From positions 240,082 through 304,081 of the forward strand of contig NZ_JDTH01000002.1 of the NCBI RefSeq assembly GCF_000710615.1: a DNA stretch of 64,000 nucleotides. Reading direction: 5' to 3'. The first letter of the stretch is position 1. Every line of letters starts with the position of its first letter. This document shows, piece after piece, positions 53,064 to 63,345 of the stretch. The DNA is from Haladaptatus cibarius D43. Its GTDB lineage: Archaea; Halobacteriota; Halobacteria; Halobacteriales; Haladaptataceae. Position numbers and translations under genes: made by a program. Below the pieces are notes generated by a model. It had not been told where the DNA came from. It searched no databases and saw only the letters and a list, made by a program, of their open reading frames with translations.

Positions 53064-53138
53064 GGGTCGGTAGTCTAGTCCGGTTATGACAGCTCCTTCA
53101 CACGGAGCAGATCGGCAGTTCGAATCTGCCCCGACCCA
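53064..53138 (+). tRNA. tRNA-Val (CAC)
   Basis: 75-nt cloverleaf: acceptor GGGTCGG pairs with CCGACCC, discriminator A; anticodon stem GCTCC / GGAGC encloses TTCACAC with anticodon CAC; T-arm GGCAG-TTCGAAT-CTGCC. CCA is not encoded. No intron. It reads GTG codons. The gene is the left border of an AT-richer island. Confidence 0.95.
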
Positions 53139-53693
53139 TTTCTGACGGTGTTACGTGACGAGTGGAGCGAGGAGCCTACACCGTCGAAATGGCGGGCAGT
53201 TCGAAGTAGACAAGCCGCATGCCCGGAAGCGCAACGCAGTGAGCATCCCGGAACGTCTCCACAAAGTTCGAATCCACCTCGATCTTTCTCCGAAAGCACC
53301 GTCAAAAGCCGAGTTTCGACCGCTATGGCTCGCCGACGGAGATGCTCTGCACCGGCAAGCCCTGCTCGTCCGCGAGGTTGTGAATGGCGGTGAGGAACTC
53401 CTCAGTTACGTCGTTTCGGGATATTCTTTCGAGAATCAGGCGCGTTTACTGAACGGTACTCTTTTCTTCCGAAGAATCGTTTGGTGACATGCTTTAGGTA
53501 GGTCCTGAAGCAATCGGGGTCAGTGCTCTAACACTGGCCTTTCAGCGAAACCCCGGTTTGCTTCGCTTGGGAATTTAGACTATAGGGAGTTGATTCTATT
53601 GATTTGAAGGGTTTGAGGGTGTGTGCGGATGGGTAGATTCGGATTGTTAATTAAAAGGACACATTCATGTGCTGAGGATAGTTGCTTTGAGTC
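53139..53693. other. Debris field behind tRNA-Val
   Basis: 555 bp without an intact gene. It holds a decayed small reverse-strand frame (53323-53490), a 5-bp hairpin CAGTG-ctctaa-CACTG (53521-53536), and falling GC towards the restriction gene. AT-rich TTAATTAAAAGG (53647-53658) is a likely promoter for the gene at 53694. No clear copy of the tRNA 3' end was found. Confidence 0.5.
53323..53490 (-). pseudogene. Decayed small gene with in-frame TAA
   Basis: On the reverse strand ATG 53490 starts MSPNDSSEEKSTVQ, then TAA, and the same frame continues TRLILERISRNDVTEEFLTA to IHNLADEQGLPVQSISVGEP before a stop at 53323-53325. Joined, it would be a 55-residue helical acidic protein. Either a broken gene of the integrated element or chance. 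No family recognised. Confidence 0.35.
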
Positions 53694-54521
53694 ATGCAAC
53701 CGGAAATCGGAAAGCATCCTGTTGAGTTCTACGGTCATTTTCATCAGAATAAATCTGCTGTGGAGAACGGGAAAGAAACAGATCACTGTCCATTTATCGA
53801 GACGACATGCAAGAAACGACGAAAAAGTGAGGGCGAGAGTATCGGAACGTGTTCGGTTGGCTATCGAGGACAAGGACAAACGGAGTTTAAACCCCACTGT
53901 ATCTGTCCCCACCGATTCGAGACGCCGGAAGTGCTGAACGAAATCGAATCGCTGTTCGTTGATGACGGTGAATATTTTGTAACGCCGGAGGTTCCGCTAC
54001 AGGGAACCTCAATCGACTATGTGGCGGGCAAACGAGCGGACGACGGATCAGTTATTGACTTTGCAGGCGTCGAAATACAGGCACTCGATACCACCGGTTC
54101 GGTTTGGAACCACCGCGAAGCCTACTTCGATGACGACCTCGATATGGAAGCAGTCAGCAAAAACTACGGTATCAATTGGGCGATGTCGCTCACGAAAACG
54201 ATGATGCAACAGGCGTACAAGAAGGGCCAAACGTTCGGTGAGTGGGGTGAGAACCTCATTTTCCTCGTTCAAGACGTGTCTATCGACTACATCCGGAACA
54301 ACTACGACGCATCTGGACTCCGAAGCATTCGAAAAGACGACCCTGTTCATTTCTATTCGTACCGACTGGATTACAATACTGAAACTGACGACTACGAGTG
54401 GACGATTGACGAGAAACTGTCTGCCGACATCGACGGCGTTACGGATATGATGGTTCCGCCGGATGACGAGGCTCCGCCGACCAGAGGGGAGTTCTGTGAA
54501 GCGGTCGAAAAACGATTTTAA
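53694..54521 (+). CDS. NotI-family type II restriction endonuclease
   Basis: 275 residues. Family pattern: HPVEFYGH at the start, then cysteines at about 32, 39, 53, 69 and 71 (CPFIETTC, GTCSVGYRG, CICPHRFE), matching the Cys cluster that binds iron in NotI. The PD-(D/E)xK core is visible as SIDYV with Asp108 and GVEIQALDTTGSVW with Glu127-x-Gln129. Such enzymes cut long GC-rich sites, which would be frequent in a GC-rich genome. Its stop overlaps the stop of the methyltransferase gene by 4 bp, tail to tail. AT-rich promoter just upstream. Lower GC than neighbours implies transfer. Confidence 0.88.
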   Translation: MQPEIGKHPVEFYGHFHQNKSAVENGKETDHCPFIETTCKKRRKSEGESIGTCSVGYRGQGQTEFKPHCICPHRFETPEVLNEIESLFVDDGEYFVTPEVPLQGTSIDYVAGKRADDGSVIDFAGVEIQALDTTGSVWNHREAYFDDDLDMEAVSKNYGINWAMSLTKTMMQQAYKKGQTFGEWGENLIFLVQDVSIDYIRNNYDASGLRSIRKDDPVHFYSYRLDYNTETDDYEWTIDEKLSADIDGVTDMMVPPDDEAPPTRGEFCEAVEKRF

Positions 54522-55591
54522 ATAGTCTCGAACGTCATTTGGACGCCGCTATCGATGCGTGATTCGGCAGTTTCGAGATATTCTTCGCTGGCGTCGATTC
54601 CGATGCCACGTCGCTGGTGTTTGTTGGCCGCGACAACCGTCGTTCCTGTCCCGACAAACGGGTCAAGTACGATTCCATCCTCGGGACATGTGGCTTTAAT
54701 CGGCAGGTCACACAAATCAACTGGATACACAGCGCAGTGTGAATCATCGCGGTGGTCGTCCTCTGGAACGATGTCCCAGATGTTCTCCGGCATTGGGCCG
54801 TCAGCGTTGTATCGAAGAAAGTAAAATCCGTTTTCAGCAAGTTCTCGGGCGCGTCCGGAGAGGTTTTCAGAGTTGCCGTGTGTCGTCCGCTGTTCATCGC
54901 GGATGACCATCCGGAAATCCTTGATTTCGCGGTTTTTCATTCGCTCTAAATGCTCTTCGAGAGCATTGTGGGCATCTTGTTTTTCTTCCTCGGTCAGTGC
55001 ATCGTTGCCAGCAATCTGGCGACGATAGCGCGTGCCGGAGACACCAGTCGGGGAGACGACATCACCATTGTCCTTGTAAGTAAGTTCAAAATCCTCTGTT
55101 CCTCGAATCGCGGCGTCGTCGTAAACATACTCCTTCTGCTGAACGAAATGGAACACGTACTCGTGCATCACCCGGAGTCGGTCGTTGGCCGCACTTGGAT
55201 TTCCTTTCACCTTGTTCCAAACGATGTCGTTACGCAGAATCCAATCCTGTTGGTCTTGGAGGGCAAGTGCGGTTCGCCACGGGACGCCCACCAAATTTTT
55301 ATTTTCGTATGTGTCTCCGATATTCAGCCAAAACGAACCTTTGGGCTTCAGCACTCGCTTGAGTTCATCAGTAATTTCCAGTAGCCTTTCAACGAACTGC
55401 TTCGGAGATACCTCGTTTCCAAGCGTACTCTCCCCGCTGTACTCTCGCACGCCCCAGTACGGTGGGGAGGTCATGATACAGTCAACTGATGAGTCGGGAA
55501 AGTTCTGCAACACATCGCAACTATCGCCATGAATCAGTCCATTTGCTGAATCGGATTCTATCCAGTGCTGTGCTTCGCCCGGCTCAATCAT
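54518..55591 (-). CDS. Type II DNA methyltransferase, SPPY class (beta-type)
   Basis: 357 residues. The catalytic motif TSPPYWGVREY (about residues 41-51) precedes the AdoMet motif VLDPFVGTGTTVVAANK (about 308), the order of beta-class amino-methyltransferases; SPPY with Trp often means N4-cytosine, though N6-adenine is possible. An inserted charged region (about 165-245) is probably the target-recognition part. Expected to protect the host from the neighbouring NotI-type enzyme, with which it converges. Start ATG at 55591 lies 150 bp from the divergent winged-helix gene. Confidence 0.9.
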   Translation of the reverse strand: MIEPGEAQHWIESDSANGLIHGDSCDVLQNFPDSSVDCIMTSPPYWGVREYSGESTLGNEVSPKQFVERLLEITDELKRVLKPKGSFWLNIGDTYENKNLVGVPWRTALALQDQQDWILRNDIVWNKVKGNPSAANDRLRVMHEYVFHFVQQKEYVYDDAAIRGTEDFELTYKDNGDVVSPTGVSGTRYRRQIAGNDALTEEEKQDAHNALEEHLERMKNREIKDFRMVIRDEQRTTHGNSENLSGRARELAENGFYFLRYNADGPMPENIWDIVPEDDHRDDSHCAVYPVDLCDLPIKATCPEDGIVLDPFVGTGTTVVAANKHQRRGIGIDASEEYLETAESRIDSGVQMTFETI

Positions 55592-56048: not shown

Positions 56049-56918
56049 TTACAGGAAGTCTTCGATGTTGTCCGCGACTTCCTCGGGCGTGTCGCCGACC
56101 GGGACGCCCGCGTCGTTCAGAGCGTTGATTTTGCTCTCCGCAGTTCCCGTTCCGCTACCAGAGACGATCGCACCGGCGTGACCCATGCGCTTTCCTGGCG
56201 GGGCGGTTCGACCCGCGATGAAGCCAGCCACGGGGGTGTCCATGTTCTCCGCGATGAACGCCGCGGCGTCTTCTTCGTCCTCGCCGCCGATTTCGCCACA
56301 CATGACGACTGCGTCGGTGTCCGGGTCGTCCTCGAACAGCGAGAGAGCGTCGATGAAGTCCGTGCCGATAATCGGGTCGCCGCCGATGCCGATGGCGGTG
56401 GTCTGGCCGATGCCGCGCTGGGTGAGGTTATCGACCACTTGGTAGGTCAGCGTCCCCGAACGGGAGACGAGGCCGACGTTTCCGGCCTCGAAGATGTTGC
56501 CGGGGAGGATACCGAGTTTGGCCTCGCCGGGCGTGATGATGCCGGGGCAGTTCGGGCCAAGGAGTCGCGTGTCAGTTTCCGAGAGTCGTTTGTACACTTT
56601 CGACATGTCCTGCGTCGGGACGCCCTCGGTGATGGCGACCACGAAGTCGAGGTCGGTGTCGAGTGCTTCGAAGACAGCGTCACCAGCGAACGCCGGTGGA
56701 ACGAAGACGACCGATGCGTCGGCGTCTTCTTCATCGACTGCTTCGTGAACGGTGTCGTAGACGGGCACGCCTTTGACTTCCTGCCCGCCTTTGCCGGGCA
56801 CCGCACCGGCCACGACGTTCGTTCCGTACTCCATCATCTGTTCGGTGTGGAAACTGCCCTCACCGCCAGTGATACCTTGGACGACTACTCGGGTGTCGTC
56901 GTCTACGAGAATGCTCAT
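56049..56918 (-). CDS. sucD: Succinyl-CoA synthetase alpha subunit
   Basis: 289 residues. With SucC interconverts succinyl-CoA and succinate, making ATP or GTP in the citric acid cycle. CoA-binding Rossmann part: [30 protein letters not shown], and the phospho-histidine loop [17 protein letters not shown] with the catalytic His. Overlaps sucC by 4 bp (ATGA), so translation is coupled. Full length. Confidence 0.96.
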
Positions 56919-58057
56919 TGTTCTTCCTCCGCGTTTTCGACGGCACGCTGAACCGCGTCTTCGAGCGTTGCTTCGACCTGAACGAGGTCGGTGTTCAGGA
57001 TTTCCATCCCTTCTTCGGCGTTCGTTCCGGCGAGTCGGACGACGACCGGTTTCGGAATCTCGTCCAACGATTCGAGTGCCTCGTTGATACCTTTGGCAAC
57101 CTCGTCACCGCGGGTGATGCCGCCGAAGATGTTGAAGACGACCGAATCGACGTTCTCGTCCGAGAACACCATGTCCAGCGCGTTCGTCACGCGCTCTGCT
57201 TTCGCGCCGCCACCGATGTCGAGGAAGTTGGCGGGTGTGCCGCCGTAGTAATCCACGAGGTCGAGCGTCGTCATGACCAGTCCGGCACCGTTGCCGATGA
57301 TGCCGACGTTGCCGTCGAGTCGGACGTAGTCGAAGCCGTATTCGCCTGCCATCTGTTCGAGGTCGTCCTCGTAGGAGTCCTCTTCCATCTCGGCGAGGTC
57401 GGGGTGGCGGAACAGCGCGTCACCGTCGATGTTGAGCACTGCGTCCGCGGCGACGATTTCGTCGTCGCTCGTGACCATCAGCGGGTTGATCTCCGCGTCG
57501 CTCGCGTCCTTGTTCTCCCATAGGTCATACAGCGTCGTGAGGACGCTCGCAACGTCCATTGCAATGTCGCTGTCAACGCCCGCGTCGTACACGGCCTTTC
57601 GGGCCTGATACGGGTGCATTCCGAACGCCGGGTCGATGTGTTCCCGAGCGATTGCGTCGGGCGTTTCCTCGGCGACTGCTTCGATGTCAACGCCACCTTT
57701 CGTGGACACCATGGCGACGGGTTTGCCCTCGCCGCGATCCATCGTCACGCCAACGTACAGTTCGTTGACAAAATCGACGGCCCCTTCGACCAACACCTTC
57801 TCGACAGTGTAGCCTTTCAAATCCATCCCGATGATGGATTCTGCGGCCTCTTCCGCCTCGTCGCGGTCTTCTGCGAGTTTAATGCCCCCGGCCTTTCCGC
57901 GGCCGCCGACATGTACCTGCGCTTTCACCGCGACGGGGTAGCCGATGCCCTCCGCCGCTTCGACGACCTCGTCAACACTCTCTGCAAGTGCCGAATCGGG
58001 CGTCGGAATCCCCGCGTCGGAGAACACCTCCTTCGCCTGGTACTCGTGTAGCCTCAT
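56915..58057 (-). CDS. sucC: Succinyl-CoA synthetase beta subunit
   Basis: 380 residues. ATP-grasp subunit. Begins [20 protein letters not shown], the family opening; nucleotide and substrate contacts lie in [26 protein letters not shown] and [15 protein letters not shown]-type sequence ([13 protein letters not shown]). A TATA-like element on the reverse strand (CTTAAA at 58084-58089) is 27 nt before ATG, so the transcript is nearly leaderless. An inverted repeat covers the bases just upstream of it (58090-58114). Confidence 0.96.
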
Positions 58058-58166: not shown

Positions 58167-59462
58167 GTGAAAATCGGCCAATGGGTTCCCGTCTCGCTGA
58201 AGCGGTCACTGGTTCGGCCATTCGCCGAACGAATCGAAAAATGGTCGCTCGCACTCCTCTTTCAGTGGGTGCTGTACGTTCTGCTGAAACGGTTGTGGAG
58301 ATTCGGAACTGCAACCGGACTGTGGACGCGCGACGACACCCGCTGGGTGTTTGGCGCGCGCGGCGGTGGGGCGTTCGTGGACAACGCAAAGTATCTGTAT
58401 CTACACGTCGCAAACGAGCAGCCCGAGATTCGACCCGTTTGGCTCTCGAAAAACCGGAACGTTGTGCGCGAACTCCAAGAGTCCGGTTACGAGGCGTACT
58501 ACACCTACTCGTTCCGTGGACTGCTGGCGAACCTTCGCGCAGGTATCGTCCTCCTCACGCAGGGGCACCGCGATGTCGCCATGCCTTGCTGTGCGGGCGC
58601 GAAGACGGTGCTGCTGTGGCACGGAATCCCGCTGAAAACGATTTCGTGGGACGCCGAATTCCCGACCCGCCCGGCACCAATGCAGGCAGTTCATGAATAC
58701 ATGGCCGACGAGTTCGACCGACTCCTCGTTCCGAGCGAGAACCTCGCCGACGTGTTCGTATCCGGACTGCACATCGACCGCAACCGGATGATGTTCGCGG
58801 ATTATCCGCGTCTCGATGCGCTCTTTTCGGACGTTCGGGGGAGCGAAATCGGAGGGGACGAGAAATTGCAGAAACGCATTCGGCATCTCTCGCGGAACCA
58901 CCACGTTTTCTTCTACCTGCCGACGTTCCGAAACGGCCCGGAACGACGGTTTTCGGAACAGTTCGATTTCAACGAACTCGACGATTTTCTGGGACGAACG
59001 GACACCTACTTCGTCGTCAAAACGCATCCGAGAGAGCAGTTCGACCTGCCGTCGAACTGCGAACGAATCGTGAAATTGCCGGAAAAATGCGACGTGTACC
59101 CGCTGCTCCGACACGCCGATACGCTCGTGACGGATTATTCGTCCATCTATTTCGATTATCTCGCCCTTGACCGACCGGTGGTTTTCTTCCCATACGACCG
59201 CACCGAGTACGAGAACTCACGAGGGTTCTACTTCGACTACGACGAAATCACGGCGGGGCCGGTCGCTTCGAACTTCGACGAACTGCTCACTGCCCTTTCG
59301 TGGACGCTCGAAACCGACTTGGAGAAAGCTGCACGACGCGAACTCTCCCGAAAGCTGTTGACCGACGTGAATCGAACTGGCGAGCAGTCTGCCCTCGTAT
59401 ACAGTGCGATTCGTCGGGAACTGTTCGGGGTTCGTACCGACGGACTATATAGAATACTGTGA
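58167..59462 (+). CDS. CDP-glycerol glycerophosphotransferase family protein (TagF-like)
   Basis: 431 residues, GTG start at 58167 with TAATTTTT (58131-58138) about 30 nt before it. It lacks a transmembrane domain beyond a hydrophobic helix near residues 25-43, so it is membrane-associated. Motifs: WVFGARGGGAFVDNAKYLYL, VLLWHGIPLKTISW, the GT-B-type YLPTFRN, KTHPREQF, and the highly conserved VTDYSSIYFDYLALDRPVVFFPYD. TagF-type enzymes build poly(glycerol phosphate) from CDP-glycerol in bacterial teichoic acids; the acceptor and donor here are unknown. First gene of a co-directional surface-polymer-like cluster. Confidence 0.9.
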   Translation: MKIGQWVPVSLKRSLVRPFAERIEKWSLALLFQWVLYVLLKRLWRFGTATGLWTRDDTRWVFGARGGGAFVDNAKYLYLHVANEQPEIRPVWLSKNRNVVRELQESGYEAYYTYSFRGLLANLRAGIVLLTQGHRDVAMPCCAGAKTVLLWHGIPLKTISWDAEFPTRPAPMQAVHEYMADEFDRLLVPSENLADVFVSGLHIDRNRMMFADYPRLDALFSDVRGSEIGGDEKLQKRIRHLSRNHHVFFYLPTFRNGPERRFSEQFDFNELDDFLGRTDTYFVVKTHPREQFDLPSNCERIVKLPEKCDVYPLLRHADTLVTDYSSIYFDYLALDRPVVFFPYDRTEYENSRGFYFDYDEITAGPVASNFDELLTALSWTLETDLEKAARRELSRKLLTDVNRTGEQSALVYSAIRRELFGVRTDGLYRIL

Positions 59463-59600
59463 AATGGTTTGTCACACTAGAGTTCAAGACGAGTCAATAT
59501 ATTAAAAGAGAAACCTTCAAGTCTGACTAGCCGTATTCGAATCCAAGGGTGGCAGAACACGCACAACACCCAAAATGTGCGGGTCTGCCCGAATTTGCCT

Positions 59601-60629
59601 ATGGCACGCACGAGCGGAACGACGGAACGACAGTCGGACGTCGAACAGCACTCGAACGCCGGACAACAACCTGCGAATCCCAAACAACAACCATCGAACA
59701 TCGAACAGCAATCTGCGACTCTCGAATCGCCTGTAAACGCCGAACTGGCGACGACGGAGTTCGAACAGACCGTGGATGCAGACGGACAGTCTGCATCCAC
59801 GAACGACCTCTCGATTATCGCCCACCGCGGTTTCGCGGGCGTGTATCCTGAAAACACGATTGGAGCGGTAAAACAGGCCACGGCCGCGCCGACGGGCGCA
59901 CCGGAGATGATAGAAATAGACGTGCACCCGACCGCGGACGGCGAAATCATCGTCTTTCACGACACTCGTCTTGACCGGTTGACGAACGCGCCGGAAACCC
60001 TCGCAAGTCAGCGCGTCTGGAATTTACCATACGGCGACCTGCGCGACGTATCGATTCTCGGAACTGACGAAACGATTCCGCGGCTGGAAGCCTTCCTCGA
60101 CGCAGTTCCGTCTGAAATCGGCGTCAACATCGAGTTCAAAAATCCCGGGACGCTCGACATTCGGCCACGCGAAAACCTCCCGCCTGAAGACCGAGAAAAA
60201 CAGACGGAGTTGTGGCGTCCGTTCGCAGAGCGCGTCCTTTCGACGCTCGCCGACTACGACCACGAATTTCTCATCTCCTCGTTCGGCGAAGGTGCGCTCG
60301 CGGCGGTTCGTGAACTCGATTCGAACATCCCAATCGCCGCGGTGTTCGCCAGATCAATCGTGGACGGGTTCGAAATCGCACGCCGATACGACTGCGATGC
60401 GATTCATCCCCCATGGAACATGATTGCCGGAACCGAACTGTTCAACGACGAGTACGGTTCGCTCGGCCCTTACGACGAAATCGACATCGTCGACCTCGCA
60501 CACGAGGAAGGCTACGACGTGAACGTCTGGACTGTCGAGAGTTGGTATCAGGCGAGCCAACTACACGAGGCGGGCGTGGACGGCATCATCGCGGACTATC
60601 CGAACGTTCTGCGCTTTTCCGGCCGCTGA
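59601..60629 (+). CDS. Glycerophosphodiester phosphodiesterase (GDPD)
   Basis: 342 residues. After a 70-residue Gln/Ser/Glu-rich N-terminal segment comes IIAHRGFAGVYPENTIGAVK (HRG...ENT with metal-binding Glu), then EIDVHPTADGEIIVFHD (catalytic His) and DEHEFLISS-type strands through NVWTVES. Hydrolyses glycerophosphodiesters to an alcohol and glycerol phosphate. The odd N-terminus has no signal peptide, so cytosolic. ATG at 59601 is taken; the upstream frame from 59577 adds eight residues. Sits directly behind the TagF-like gene. Confidence 0.88.
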   Translation: MARTSGTTERQSDVEQHSNAGQQPANPKQQPSNIEQQSATLESPVNAELATTEFEQTVDADGQSASTNDLSIIAHRGFAGVYPENTIGAVKQATAAPTGAPEMIEIDVHPTADGEIIVFHDTRLDRLTNAPETLASQRVWNLPYGDLRDVSILGTDETIPRLEAFLDAVPSEIGVNIEFKNPGTLDIRPRENLPPEDREKQTELWRPFAERVLSTLADYDHEFLISSFGEGALAAVRELDSNIPIAAVFARSIVDGFEIARRYDCDAIHPPWNMIAGTELFNDEYGSLGPYDEIDIVDLAHEEGYDVNVWTVESWYQASQLHEAGVDGIIADYPNVLRFSGR

Positions 60630-60725
60630 CACCTCCGAAAAATCAACGACGGAACCATCGACATCCTGACCGCTAGCCCGTAACCTTATCACAAACTACG
60701 TCGCGGTATTGGGTCGGTGACTTTC

Positions 60726-62285
60726 ATGAGGGGGGTAATTCTGTCAGCGGGGATTGGGTCTCGACTTCGACCGCTCACGCTTCACAAGCCGAAATGTTGC
60801 GTGACCGTGGATGGCGAACCGATCCTCGCCCGACAGTTACGAGCGTACGACGATGCAGGGGTAACGAACGTTACGGTCATCGCGGGTTATCTCGCGGACG
60901 ACGTAAAAACGGTCTGCGAGCGAGTCGCTCGTCAACGACCGAATCTCGACGTGACCGTCAGAACGAGCGAGGTGTTTGCCAACACGGACAACATGTTTTC
61001 CTTATCGCTCGCGGCGGAGGACGTTGCCGGAGAGGAGTTCGTTCTCAGCAACGGCGATGTCGTTTTCGACCCCGGCTTACTCGAAACGGTGGTCGAATCC
61101 GACGCCGACAGCGCGGTGGCCTGCGATACGGGACAGTTCAGCGAGGAGGCGATGAAAGTCTCGATTGACGAAACCGATCGACTCACACACATCGACAAAG
61201 GAATTCCCGAGGAGGCCGCACACGGCTGTTCGACCGACGTGTACCGATTTTCGGCCGACTTCTCGGCGATGCTGTTCGAGGAAATCACGAGAACAATCGA
61301 GCGCGAAAACGAGTACTGTGAGTGGACTGAGCTGGCAATCGACGAAATCGTCCGCAATCGAACTCACGACTTGTCGGTCGCGGACGTGAGCCAGTATCGG
61401 TGGGTCGAGATAGACGACTTCACCGATTTGGAATCCGCGGACTTGCTCTTTAGTTCGCTCTCTTCGCTCGAATCGAAGGAGGCGGTGTTTTTCGACCTCG
61501 ACGGAACGGTCTATCTGGACGACGAACTCGTGGACGACGCGAAGGCGCGAATCGAAACGCTGCGCGAATCCGGCGTTGACGTGTACTTTCTCACCAACAA
61601 CTCCTCACGGTGGAAAGACGACTACGTGCAAAAGCTGAACTCGCTCGGCGTAGAGTGCGATACGGAGAATTTGCTTCTTTCGACTGACGGGGTCATTCAA
61701 CACCTTCAAGACACGGACGACGAGGTGTTCGTGCTGGGCACGACGGCGATGCGAGACGCCCTTTCCGACCACGGAATCGCTGTCGATTCCGACGACCCCA
61801 ACCACGTCGTCGTCGGCTTCGATACGGAACTCACCTACGAGAAAGCCCGCGAAGCGACCCTCGGAATCCGAAACGGGGCGACGTTCCTCCTCGCACATCC
61901 CGATACAGTGTGCCCGACTGCGGAGGGAATGGTTCCCGACTGCGGTTCCATCGGCGCGTTGGTCGAACGCGCGACGGACAGAAACCCCGACCAAATCTTC
62001 GGCAAGCCTAACGCCGAGATGATTCGGCACGTCCTCGATTCGAACGGCTACGCGCCCGAGGACGTTGTCGTCGTCGGCGACCGACTGGAAACCGACGTGC
62101 AGTTGGCCGAAAACGTCGGCTGTGAATCCGTCTGCGTGCTGACCGGGGATGCCACTCGTGCAGATGTCGAAGCAAGCGACATCAATCCGACGCTCGTCGC
62201 GCCGAGCGTCGAGGTGCTCGACCAGTTCGTCTCCGTCTCGTCCGAAGCGAGCGCACAGCGAGTCCTCGACGAGGGTGCGTCGTGA
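60726..62285 (+). CDS. Fusion: sugar/polyol-phosphate nucleotidyltransferase + NagD-type HAD phosphatase
   Basis: 519 residues with two domains. Residues 1-240 form an NTP transferase: MRGVILSAGIGSRLRPLT (G-x-G-x-R), KPKCCVTVDGEPIL, LSNGDVVFD (Asp-metal), ending VEIDDFTDL, closest in look to LicC/CTP-type enzymes. Residues 255-505 form a HAD-IIA phosphatase: VFFDLDGTVYLDDEL, VYFLTNNSSR, FGKPNAEM and VVVGDRLETDVQLA. Such HAD proteins include glycerol-phosphate and pyridoxal-phosphate phosphatases. The fusion suggests channelled activation and dephosphorylation of one polyol phosphate. GTG at 60717 is an alternative start. Overlaps the next gene (GTGA). Confidence 0.85.
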   Translation: MRGVILSAGIGSRLRPLTLHKPKCCVTVDGEPILARQLRAYDDAGVTNVTVIAGYLADDVKTVCERVARQRPNLDVTVRTSEVFANTDNMFSLSLAAEDVAGEEFVLSNGDVVFDPGLLETVVESDADSAVACDTGQFSEEAMKVSIDETDRLTHIDKGIPEEAAHGCSTDVYRFSADFSAMLFEEITRTIERENEYCEWTELAIDEIVRNRTHDLSVADVSQYRWVEIDDFTDLESADLLFSSLSSLESKEAVFFDLDGTVYLDDELVDDAKARIETLRESGVDVYFLTNNSSRWKDDYVQKLNSLGVECDTENLLLSTDGVIQHLQDTDDEVFVLGTTAMRDALSDHGIAVDSDDPNHVVVGFDTELTYEKAREATLGIRNGATFLLAHPDTVCPTAEGMVPDCGSIGALVERATDRNPDQIFGKPNAEMIRHVLDSNGYAPEDVVVVGDRLETDVQLAENVGCESVCVLTGDATRADVEASDINPTLVAPSVEVLDQFVSVSSEASAQRVLDEGAS

Positions 62286-63178
62286 GCGGTGTTGGTAGTG
62301 GTGATGTCGGTGATAGTAGCGGCGGTGATGTCGGTGATAGTAGCGGCGGTGATGTCGGTGGTCGGGGTGTTCGGACGGGGTTCGTAACTCAGACCCACAC
62401 CGGCGAGGTGACGTGGCAGAAAGCAATCGAAGAAGGTGCGAACCTTGGATTCGATTTCGCCGAACTGTATCTGGACGGCGCGACGGAGCGGACGAAACTC
62501 GACCCAGCGGCAGTCCGGTCGCTGGCGGACGAGCAGGGTATCGACCTGCTCGTCCACCTCCCGTTCGTGGACGTAGAAATCGGGTCGCCCCGGGAAGGTA
62601 TCCGCGAAGCTTCGCGCGAAGAGCAGAAAGCCTGTGTCGAAACCGCGGAAGCGATGGGCGCGGAAAAAGCGGTTCTGCACGCGAGTTCCCACGCAACTCC
62701 GCCCGAGTGGACGCGGGAGGACGTGGAACCGTACCTCCTGTCCGCGATACGCGAACTGGATACGTTCGGCGAAGAACACGGCGTGGAAATCTGTGTCGAG
62801 AACCTGCCCGGAATCCTGTTTACGGTACACGATTTCGACCGGATTTTCGCGGAGACGGACGCCGCGATGACGTTCGACACGGGCCACGCGCGCGTGGACG
62901 GGATGGACGCGGAGGATATGGAATCGTTTCTGACGGCGCACGGCGACCGGATTTCCCACATCCACGTCAACGACGCCCGGGGGCCTGCTGACGAACACGT
63001 CCCGACAGGTTCCGGGACGCTGGATTTGGCGACGGCGCTCGCACCGGTTCGTGATGGTTGGTCGGGAACCGTCTCCGTCGAGGTGTACTCCTTCGACTTC
63101 GACTACCTCGAACTGAGCAAGCGAAAGTTGGACGAAGCCATCCGAGAGAATGGAAGCGAGTCGAATCAGTCGTCGTAA
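62282..63178 (+). CDS. TIM-barrel sugar phosphate isomerase/epimerase-like protein
   Basis: 298 residues, GTG start overlapping the previous stop. Residues about 6-27 are tandem Gly-Asp-Val-Gly-Asp-Ser-Ser-Gly repeats encoded by a 24-bp DNA repeat, and are absent from typical relatives. The xylose-isomerase-like/AP endonuclease 2 barrel follows: GFDFAELYLDG, DLLVHLPFVDVEIG, AVLHASSHATPP, ICVENLPGILFT, MTFDTGHARVDG, ISHIHVNDARG and SVEVYSFDF, with the Glu-Asp-His-Glu metal ligands. Substrate unknown; isomerisation of a sugar or polyol phosphate for the cluster is an inference. Confidence 0.82.
   Translation: MSGVGSGDVGDSSGGDVGDSSGGDVGGRGVRTGFVTQTHTGEVTWQKAIEEGANLGFDFAELYLDGATERTKLDPAAVRSLADEQGIDLLVHLPFVDVEIGSPREGIREASREEQKACVETAEAMGAEKAVLHASSHATPPEWTREDVEPYLLSAIRELDTFGEEHGVEICVENLPGILFTVHDFDRIFAETDAAMTFDTGHARVDGMDAEDMESFLTAHGDRISHIHVNDARGPADEHVPTGSGTLDLATALAPVRDGWSGTVSVEVYSFDFDYLELSKRKLDEAIRENGSESNQSS
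62301..62360 (+). repeat. 24-bp tandem repeat, about 2.5 copies, in coding start
   Basis: Unit begins GTGATGTCGGTGATAGTAGC (24 bp); identical copies at 62301-62324 and 62325-62348 and a partial third to 62360. The repeat length is a multiple of 3, so changes in copy number keep the frame. Confidence 0.9.
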
Positions 63179-63345
63179 AACCGAACCAGTCGGCACTCGG
63201 GACAGCGATAGCTGTTCAGGTACGCGACGCTGAGGCCGAGCGAACTCAAAACGCCGCCCGACGGCTTGATTTGAATCCGCTCCTCGCCGAACGTCTGATG
63301 TTCTACGGCTTCCATCGAAACGTCACAGTCAGGACACGTTGGCAT
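63166..63345 (-). CDS. Small zinc-binding protein
   Basis: 59 residues. MPTCPDCDVSMEAVE (C-x2-C) at the start and YRCPECRLVRFYDD (C-x2-C) at the end form a four-cysteine zinc ribbon around a short beta-region (ERIQIKPSGGVLSSLGLSV). Its 3' end overlaps the end of the TIM-barrel gene by 13 bp, convergent. No known function. Divergent from the quinone oxidoreductase gene. Confidence 0.72.
   Translation of the reverse strand: MPTCPDCDVSMEAVEHQTFGEERIQIKPSGGVLSSLGLSVAYLNSYRCPECRLVRFYDD

Follow-up and report, generated by a model that had tools for sequence, protein, structure and literature searches.

We analyzed a locus in a 64-kb stretch of the genome of the haloarchaeon Haladaptatus cibarius D43 (hereafter the window), in which four open reading frames (ORFs) follow one another on the + strand between positions 58167 and 63178. 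The first (58167..59462) codes for a 431-residue TagB/TarF-like CDP-alcohol phosphotransferase of the PF04464 family, as judged from Pfam matches, alignments and hydropathy. The second (59577..60629) codes for a phosphodiesterase of the glycerophosphodiester phosphodiesterase (GDPD) family without a signal peptide, recognized by PF03009 and its active-site motifs, and the third (60717..62285) for a LicC-like nucleotidyltransferase fused to a HAD-IIA phosphatase (NT-HAD), based on Pfam, TIGR01460 and an AlphaFold2 (AF2) model. The fourth, gene 4 (62282..63178), codes for a triose-phosphate isomerase (TIM) barrel of the AP_endonuc_2 superfamily (PF01261), in which alignments revealed a nine-ligand metal site of the endonuclease IV type. 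A preliminary description of the window had reported four gene families in one direction, and their positions and order were verified at the level of ORFs and Pfam families. It had also described two of the genes as coupled by overlap, which is true of NT-HAD and gene 4 only: the stop codon of the former overlaps the GTG start of the latter as GTGA, a junction also present in three other Haladaptatus genomes, and the remaining gaps in the cassette measure 87-114 bp. Based on conservation, translation of the GDPD gene probably starts at Met9 (59601) and that of NT-HAD at Met4 (60726); the N-terminal 75 residues of GDPD are of low complexity and unconserved.

The grouping of these genes is not due to chance, and the four form a conserved unit. 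In a survey of 392 Halobacteriales genomes, we found the NT-HAD fusion in 38 genomes from 9 genera and a strong PF04464 match (E < 1e-15) in 72, which include all 38 carriers of the fusion (Fisher p = 4e-33, the genomes not being phylogenetically independent). Outside the window's own family, 17/17 fusion genomes carry PF04464 (p = 1.5e-16). The count by genera, which is fairer given the non-independence of genomes, gave PF04464 in 9/9 fusion genera versus about 25/95 (p = 2e-6). Within the same 20-kb stretch as the fusion, the window being counted, PF04464 was present in 33 of the 38 genomes, GDPD in 34 and a tight ortholog of gene 4 in 29. The order transferase-GDPD-NT-HAD-TIM occurs in 16 of the 37 fetched loci and in the window (17 in total), and a rotated order with the TIM gene first occurs in 7 of the 37; the other loci are truncated or partly inverted. 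Gene 4 has a widespread haloarchaeal paralog. Tight orthologs of gene 4 itself (E < 1e-90, with a split gene in genome G026 also counted) turned up only in genomes that carry the fusion. This ortholog was not found in 9 of the 38 fusion genomes, and two genomes (G168 and G311) are also without GDPD in the stretch. No plasmid relative spans the fusion.

The cassette is split in three genomes of the Halorussus group. In one (G014), the set is distributed over two contigs, NT-HAD with gene 4 on one and GDPD with the transferase on the other, and in two more (G010 and G018) the PF04464 gene alone has been relocated. All four genes are retained in each of them, which speaks for a functional connection and against mere persistence of an old neighbourhood. 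The earlier proposal that the genes belong together across haloarchaea was thus borne out by the neighbourhood comparison, as independent occurrence in most genomes was not seen.

The transferase matches PF04464 (Glyphos_transf) over residues 56-400 with 191.3 bits, for a cut-off of 22.1, and aligns with TagF of S. epidermidis (3l7i), including the WHG..P and TDYSS motifs. In an alignment of 36 sequences, WHG, K.HP (which together supply the active-site histidines), TDYSS and RGFY are kept. Hydropathy analysis revealed a hydrophobic or amphipathic helix at about residues 25-46. The first 50 residues vary among relatives yet repeatedly hold a hydrophobic helix, with transmembrane (TM)-like hydrophobicity in some, as would be expected for a membrane-associated enzyme. 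The preliminary description had assigned this protein to the synthesis of a glycerol-phosphate polymer. It stands nearest to enzymes of the TarF/TagB type, which make single additions. Its best equivalog match is TarF, and all of its equivalog scores lie below cut-off (TarF, 94.6 versus 550; TarL, 61.1 versus 1000; TarB, 48.9 versus 500); it is also the sole PF04464 protein of the window's genome. The length of 431 residues, the TarF score far under cut-off and the single copy favor an enzyme that would add one or a few units rather than polymerise.

The nucleotidyltransferase-HAD protein contains NTP_transf_3/NTP_transferase and Hydrolase_6 domains, at about residues 4-248 and 253-505, respectively, and its AF2 model has a pLDDT of 92. 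The modelled NT domain superimposes on LicC (1jyl) with a Z of 27.8 and 2.1 Å over 228/228 residues. LicC also came first in sequence searches with this domain, which listed PntC and the inositol-phosphate cytidylyltransferases (IPCT; 4JD0/2XME family) as well. With LicC, PntC, IPCT and CpgD it shares the fold, the G-x-G-S-R-L-R-P..K signature, the metal-binding Asp of NGD and a C-terminal W-x-E-I-D motif; it differs from LicC in being only ~18% identical over the domain and in its fusion to HAD-IIA. Residues R16, K26 and D114 are nearly invariant in the alignment and correspond to the active-site residues R16, K26 and D112 named for IPCT (PMC12275187). Fold and motifs support a cytidylyltransferase of the LicC/PntC type, not of the standard sugar-1-phosphate type, in agreement with the LicC/CTP assignment of the preliminary description. 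LicC-type relatives use CTP with phosphocholine, aminoethylphosphonate (AEP), inositol phosphate or phosphoglycerate (PMC6697681, PMC12275187), and CpgD takes phosphoglycerate and rejects glycerol-1-phosphate (PMC12275187).

The HAD domain scores 128.8 bits with TIGR01460 (HAD-IIA), above the cut-off of 100.15, and its model aligns with 1vjr with a Z of 32.5. According to the alignments it retains DxD, Lys and the acidic motif IV. It has the capped HAD fold (Z 29-32) and the DxD, NN-S, K and GDRLxT[D/E] motifs of the HAD-IIA phosphatases, among them NagD, the TM1742 4-nitrophenylphosphatase, the Rv1692 glycerol-phosphate phosphatase and mammalian PGP/PDXP. Unlike these enzymes, it is covalently joined to a nucleotidyltransferase.

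The GDPD protein, encoded by the sole GDPD gene of the window's genome, matches PF03009 with 105.8 bits (cut-off 23.6), and the HRG..PENT, E.DV and FHD motifs are conserved in the alignment. It has the catalytic His-Arg-Gly, Glu-x-Asp and His motifs of GlpQ and other GDPD enzymes and differs from them by the lack of a secretion signal and by its location inside a synthesis cassette. No stretch of TM-grade hydrophobicity was detected by hydropathy in GDPD, NT-HAD or the TIM barrel, and these three proteins look cytoplasmic. The idea that a product is trimmed at the cell surface, put forward in the preliminary description, finds no support in this predicted location.

Gene 4 encodes a protein that matches PF01261 (AP_endonuc_2) with 120.7 bits. 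Its AF2 model has a pLDDT of 82, and the list of similar folds is headed by sugar 3-epimerases, with a Z of about 28. The preliminary description had called it a sugar-phosphate isomerase/epimerase. The AP_endonuc_2 fold stands; the activity does not follow, as nine metal ligands, H92, H133, E173, D199, H202, H228, D237, H239 and E267, are invariant in 18 orthologs. These residues occupy the ligand positions of the trinuclear metal site of endonuclease IV, and in a profile match to endonuclease IV 5zhz the ligand columns line up, the last Glu lying beyond the end of the alignment. In the alignment with the UlaE epimerase, the H, H and DxH positions of the extra endonuclease IV ligands are missing. 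We therefore rejected a sugar isomerase as the leading candidate activity, although in overall fold the protein resembles sugar epimerases just as closely: that name describes the fold of the protein and not its likely activity. With a full set of endonuclease IV ligands, gene 4 probably codes for a metal-dependent phosphoesterase. The nearest curated family is that of the cobamide-remodelling enzyme CbiR (NF041277; 80.1 bits, under the cut-off of 105), which hydrolyses a phosphodiester (PMC7733943). Gene 4 thus shares the TIM barrel and the nine metal ligands with the endonuclease IV/CbiR branch, and differs from it by its score under the CbiR cut-off and by a context that is not one of DNA repair. 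The widespread paralog (loci L151, 7689-8468, L152 and L153) also retains the endonuclease IV ligand set, and a whole clade annotated as sugar-phosphate isomerases may consist of phosphoesterases.

We also examined relatives of these proteins outside the fusion cassette. Among 20 PF04464 loci that lack the fusion, 13 have a nearby NT, mostly adjacent, from a clade close to that of the fusion. In the NT tree, the 13 stand-alone haloarchaeal proteins form a separate clade and have the W-x-E-I-D motif in common with the fusion. NT plus PF04464 is thus a recurring haloarchaeal pair with two forms: one includes the HAD domain and the other two hydrolases, and the second is simpler and lacks them. 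Haloarchaeal PF04464 genes that do not belong to the fusion group usually lie beside a stand-alone LicC-type NT (loci L123, L125, L128, L129, L132-L139 and L141), and some of these are in glycan clusters. Fusions from Paenibacillus and Cohnella are sister to those of haloarchaea, in a tree with long deep branches and an arbitrary root placement. They sit in cell-surface clusters: the Paenibacillus fusion (L038) is flanked by a large glycosyltransferase on one side and by an ABC-2/Wzt-type exporter on the other. In Cohnella fermenti (L039, 359-16275), the fusion is accompanied by a PEP mutase-NT fusion, a TPP-dependent decarboxylase, an Fe-ADH, a PntC-like NT, a sulfatase and three PF04464 proteins, and this is likely a phosphonoglycan cluster. 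Relatives of the HAD domain adjoin a CDP-alcohol phosphatidyltransferase in one locus (L040) and a GDPD and an MFS transporter in another (L041), contexts that point to glycerophosphate chemistry. In another lineage of the phylum, loci L147, L148 and L149 hold distant homologues that match NT-HAD over its full length. Their nucleotide-binding motif is altered to AANDNxQLRP, and PF04464 is missing from the stretch examined; they were not used for inferring function.

Taken together, these data lead us to favor, by a modest margin of confidence, a cassette that is a dedicated module for phospho-alcohol transfer and turnover. In a first step, the fold, the motifs and the genetic linkage of the NT suggest that it would couple CTP with a small phospho-alcohol and so yield a CDP-alcohol, glycerol phosphate being the likeliest substrate. 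That this CDP-alcohol feeds the PF04464 transferase is well supported by co-occurrence, since LicC-type NTs stand beside PF04464 also on their own and the bacterial fusions are in cell-surface clusters. From its family, the membrane-associated TagB/TarF-like enzyme would in a second step move the phospho-alcohol from the CDP donor to a membrane acceptor, a glycolipid or a lipid-linked glycan, with one or a few units added. The fused HAD domain may then take the terminal phosphate off a substrate or by-product, and GDPD and the endonuclease IV-like phosphoesterase would cleave phosphodiesters on the cytoplasmic side, so that the module could also return its building block.

Four points weigh against this reading. 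The cassette has three hydrolytic functions for one synthetic route, an unusual ratio in a biosynthetic operon. Genes for a glycosyltransferase, flippase or exporter are not conserved alongside it, so that it offers no evident export route for a product. For the NT domain, the structural Z values obtained with LicC and with UDP-glucose pyrophosphorylases lie within 1 of each other, although root mean square deviation and coverage favor LicC. Finally, members of the NT family accept many phospho-alcohols, and CTP and glycerol phosphate are only the presumed substrates of this one. Glycerol phosphate as the transferred unit, with CDP-glycerol as the putative product of the NT and donor for the transferase, is our best guess, drawn from the family names and the contexts of the HAD relatives.

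The same machinery might instead handle another activated unit, such as phosphoglycerate, ribitol phosphate or another polyol phosphate, a phosphocholine-like group or a phosphonate. The diversity of substrates among LicC-type cytidylyltransferases (PMC6697681, PMC12275187) is compatible with this, as are the phosphonate-pathway genes next to the Cohnella relative (PepM, TPP-decarboxylase and Fe-ADH) and the best score of the HAD-IIA domain, which it reaches, below cut-off, with a 2-phosphoglycolate phosphatase model (TK1734_fam). Such a unit is nevertheless unlikely: the haloarchaeal cassette has no conserved neighbour of the PepM, polyol reductase, choline kinase or transporter type, and both the GDPD and the HAD-relative contexts favor glycerophosphate.

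Somewhat less likely still is that a polymerase makes a genuine poly(polyol phosphate) chain of the teichoic acid type, with trimming and recycling taking place at the cell surface. In wall teichoic acid synthesis by B. subtilis and S. aureus, which involves TagD, TagB, TagF/TarF and TarL, the PF04464 enzymes likewise have two active-site histidines and TDYSS, and a CDP-alcohol donor is presumably used by the cassette as well. A chain would moreover fit the homology of the transferase to TagF at catalytic residues and the CDP-activating LicC-like partner, and a GDPD could strip units from it, as GlpQ does (PMC7086022). In eight carrier genomes, however, TagD (TIGR01518) stayed under cut-off in 8/8 (best score, 36.4 versus 165.4 bits) and a TagA-family glycosyltransferase (PF03808) was found in 0/8, the B. 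subtilis positive control being detected; these results leave the LicC-like domain as the only candidate donor enzyme identified. Further unlike wall teichoic acid synthesis, the cassette has no TagGH, its donor enzyme is of the LicC-like type and carries a phosphatase domain, and its one short, TarF/TagB-sized transferase is far under the polymerase cut-offs. The seemingly cytoplasmic hydrolases and the metal site of gene 4, which is not isomerase-like, also speak against a chain. Haloarchaea are without peptidoglycan. The cassette thus partly resembles teichoic acid synthesis, but two defining features of that pathway, TagD and TagA, were absent from the eight carrier genomes at the thresholds used, and the transferase scores under the polymerase equivalogs.

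A soluble phosphodiester cycle akin to di-myo-inositol phosphate or diglycerol phosphate synthesis, in which CDP-glycerol and glycerol phosphate would give a phosphorylated diester, HAD would strip this diester of its end phosphate and the solute would be degraded by GDPD and the product of gene 4, is the least probable scheme, because haloarchaea balance salt mainly with KCl, the transferase is a PF04464 protein with a hydrophobic N-terminal helix and not a CDP-alcohol phosphatidyltransferase, and the bacterial relatives are in surface-glycan clusters. It has in its favor the cytoplasmic look of the hydrolases, the logic of a unit of NT, transferase and phosphatase, as in inositol phosphate cytidylyltransferase pathways (4JD0/2XME family; PMC12275187), and a glycerol-phosphate cytidylyltransferase activity measured in Archaeoglobus lysates, the enzyme for which is described as unidentified (PMC8262930).

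Other features of the window were considered apart from the module of phospho-alcohol transfer and turnover. Upstream, sucCD (56049-58057, - strand) is divergently oriented. With the downstream quinone oxidoreductase, SDR, two SNF-type transporters and acyl-CoA carboxylase, it was dropped as a candidate member of the cassette on grounds of local synteny: these flanking genes accompany the cassette chiefly in relatives from Haladaptatus and Halorussus, and in other genera they are mostly missing. A 24-bp perfect tandem repeat of 2.5 copies (62300..62360, + strand; Tandem Repeats Finder) lies in frame within the first ~29 codons of gene 4, its variable N-terminal coding part, and lengthens the N-terminus. 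It is not conserved, being shorter in G003 and absent from G004 and G001. In the fusion search, H. litoreus and H. pallidirubidus are the closest named relatives of the window's genome (G000, where the window spans positions 240082-304081 of contig C2). Convergent with gene 4, a short Cys-rich frame (63166-63345, - strand) resembles a zinc ribbon (CPDC...CPEC) and is 86% conserved in L043. Scans for sigma-70-type promoters and terminators gave no more matches than chance would, as expected for archaea. Farther upstream, genes for a NotI-like restriction endonuclease (PF12183; 53694-54521) and a DNA methylase (PF01555; 54518-55591) meet tail to tail next to tRNA-Val (53064-53138), with a G+C dip to ~50%, and the corresponding gap in L045 is only ~1 kb. 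The region 53064-55591 is probably a small restriction-modification island.

We found no description of this gene combination in open-access papers, to which the search was limited. Nor did we find in them any account of teichoic-acid-like phospho-alcohol conjugates in haloarchaeal envelopes, which are not known to carry them. The cassette is related to, yet clearly distinct from, bacterial teichoic acid synthesis and apparently undescribed. In a bolder and tentative view, which we regard as possible rather than probable, it makes an archaeal conjugate or solute with a phosphodiester link that has so far gone unrecognized. Its bifunctional cytidylyltransferase-phosphatase would be the missing archaeal glycerol-phosphate cytidylyltransferase, within a cytoplasmic cycle of synthesis and degradation that includes a new phosphoesterase function of the endonuclease IV superfamily. 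Conservation of the module over nine genera, even when it is physically split, predicts a phospho-alcohol conjugate or solute in haloarchaea and names four enzymes for it. Among these, the NT-HAD fusion, common to haloarchaea and Gram-positive bacteria, is a candidate archaeal glycerol-phosphate cytidylyltransferase, and the product of gene 4 is a candidate non-DNA phosphoesterase of the endonuclease IV superfamily.

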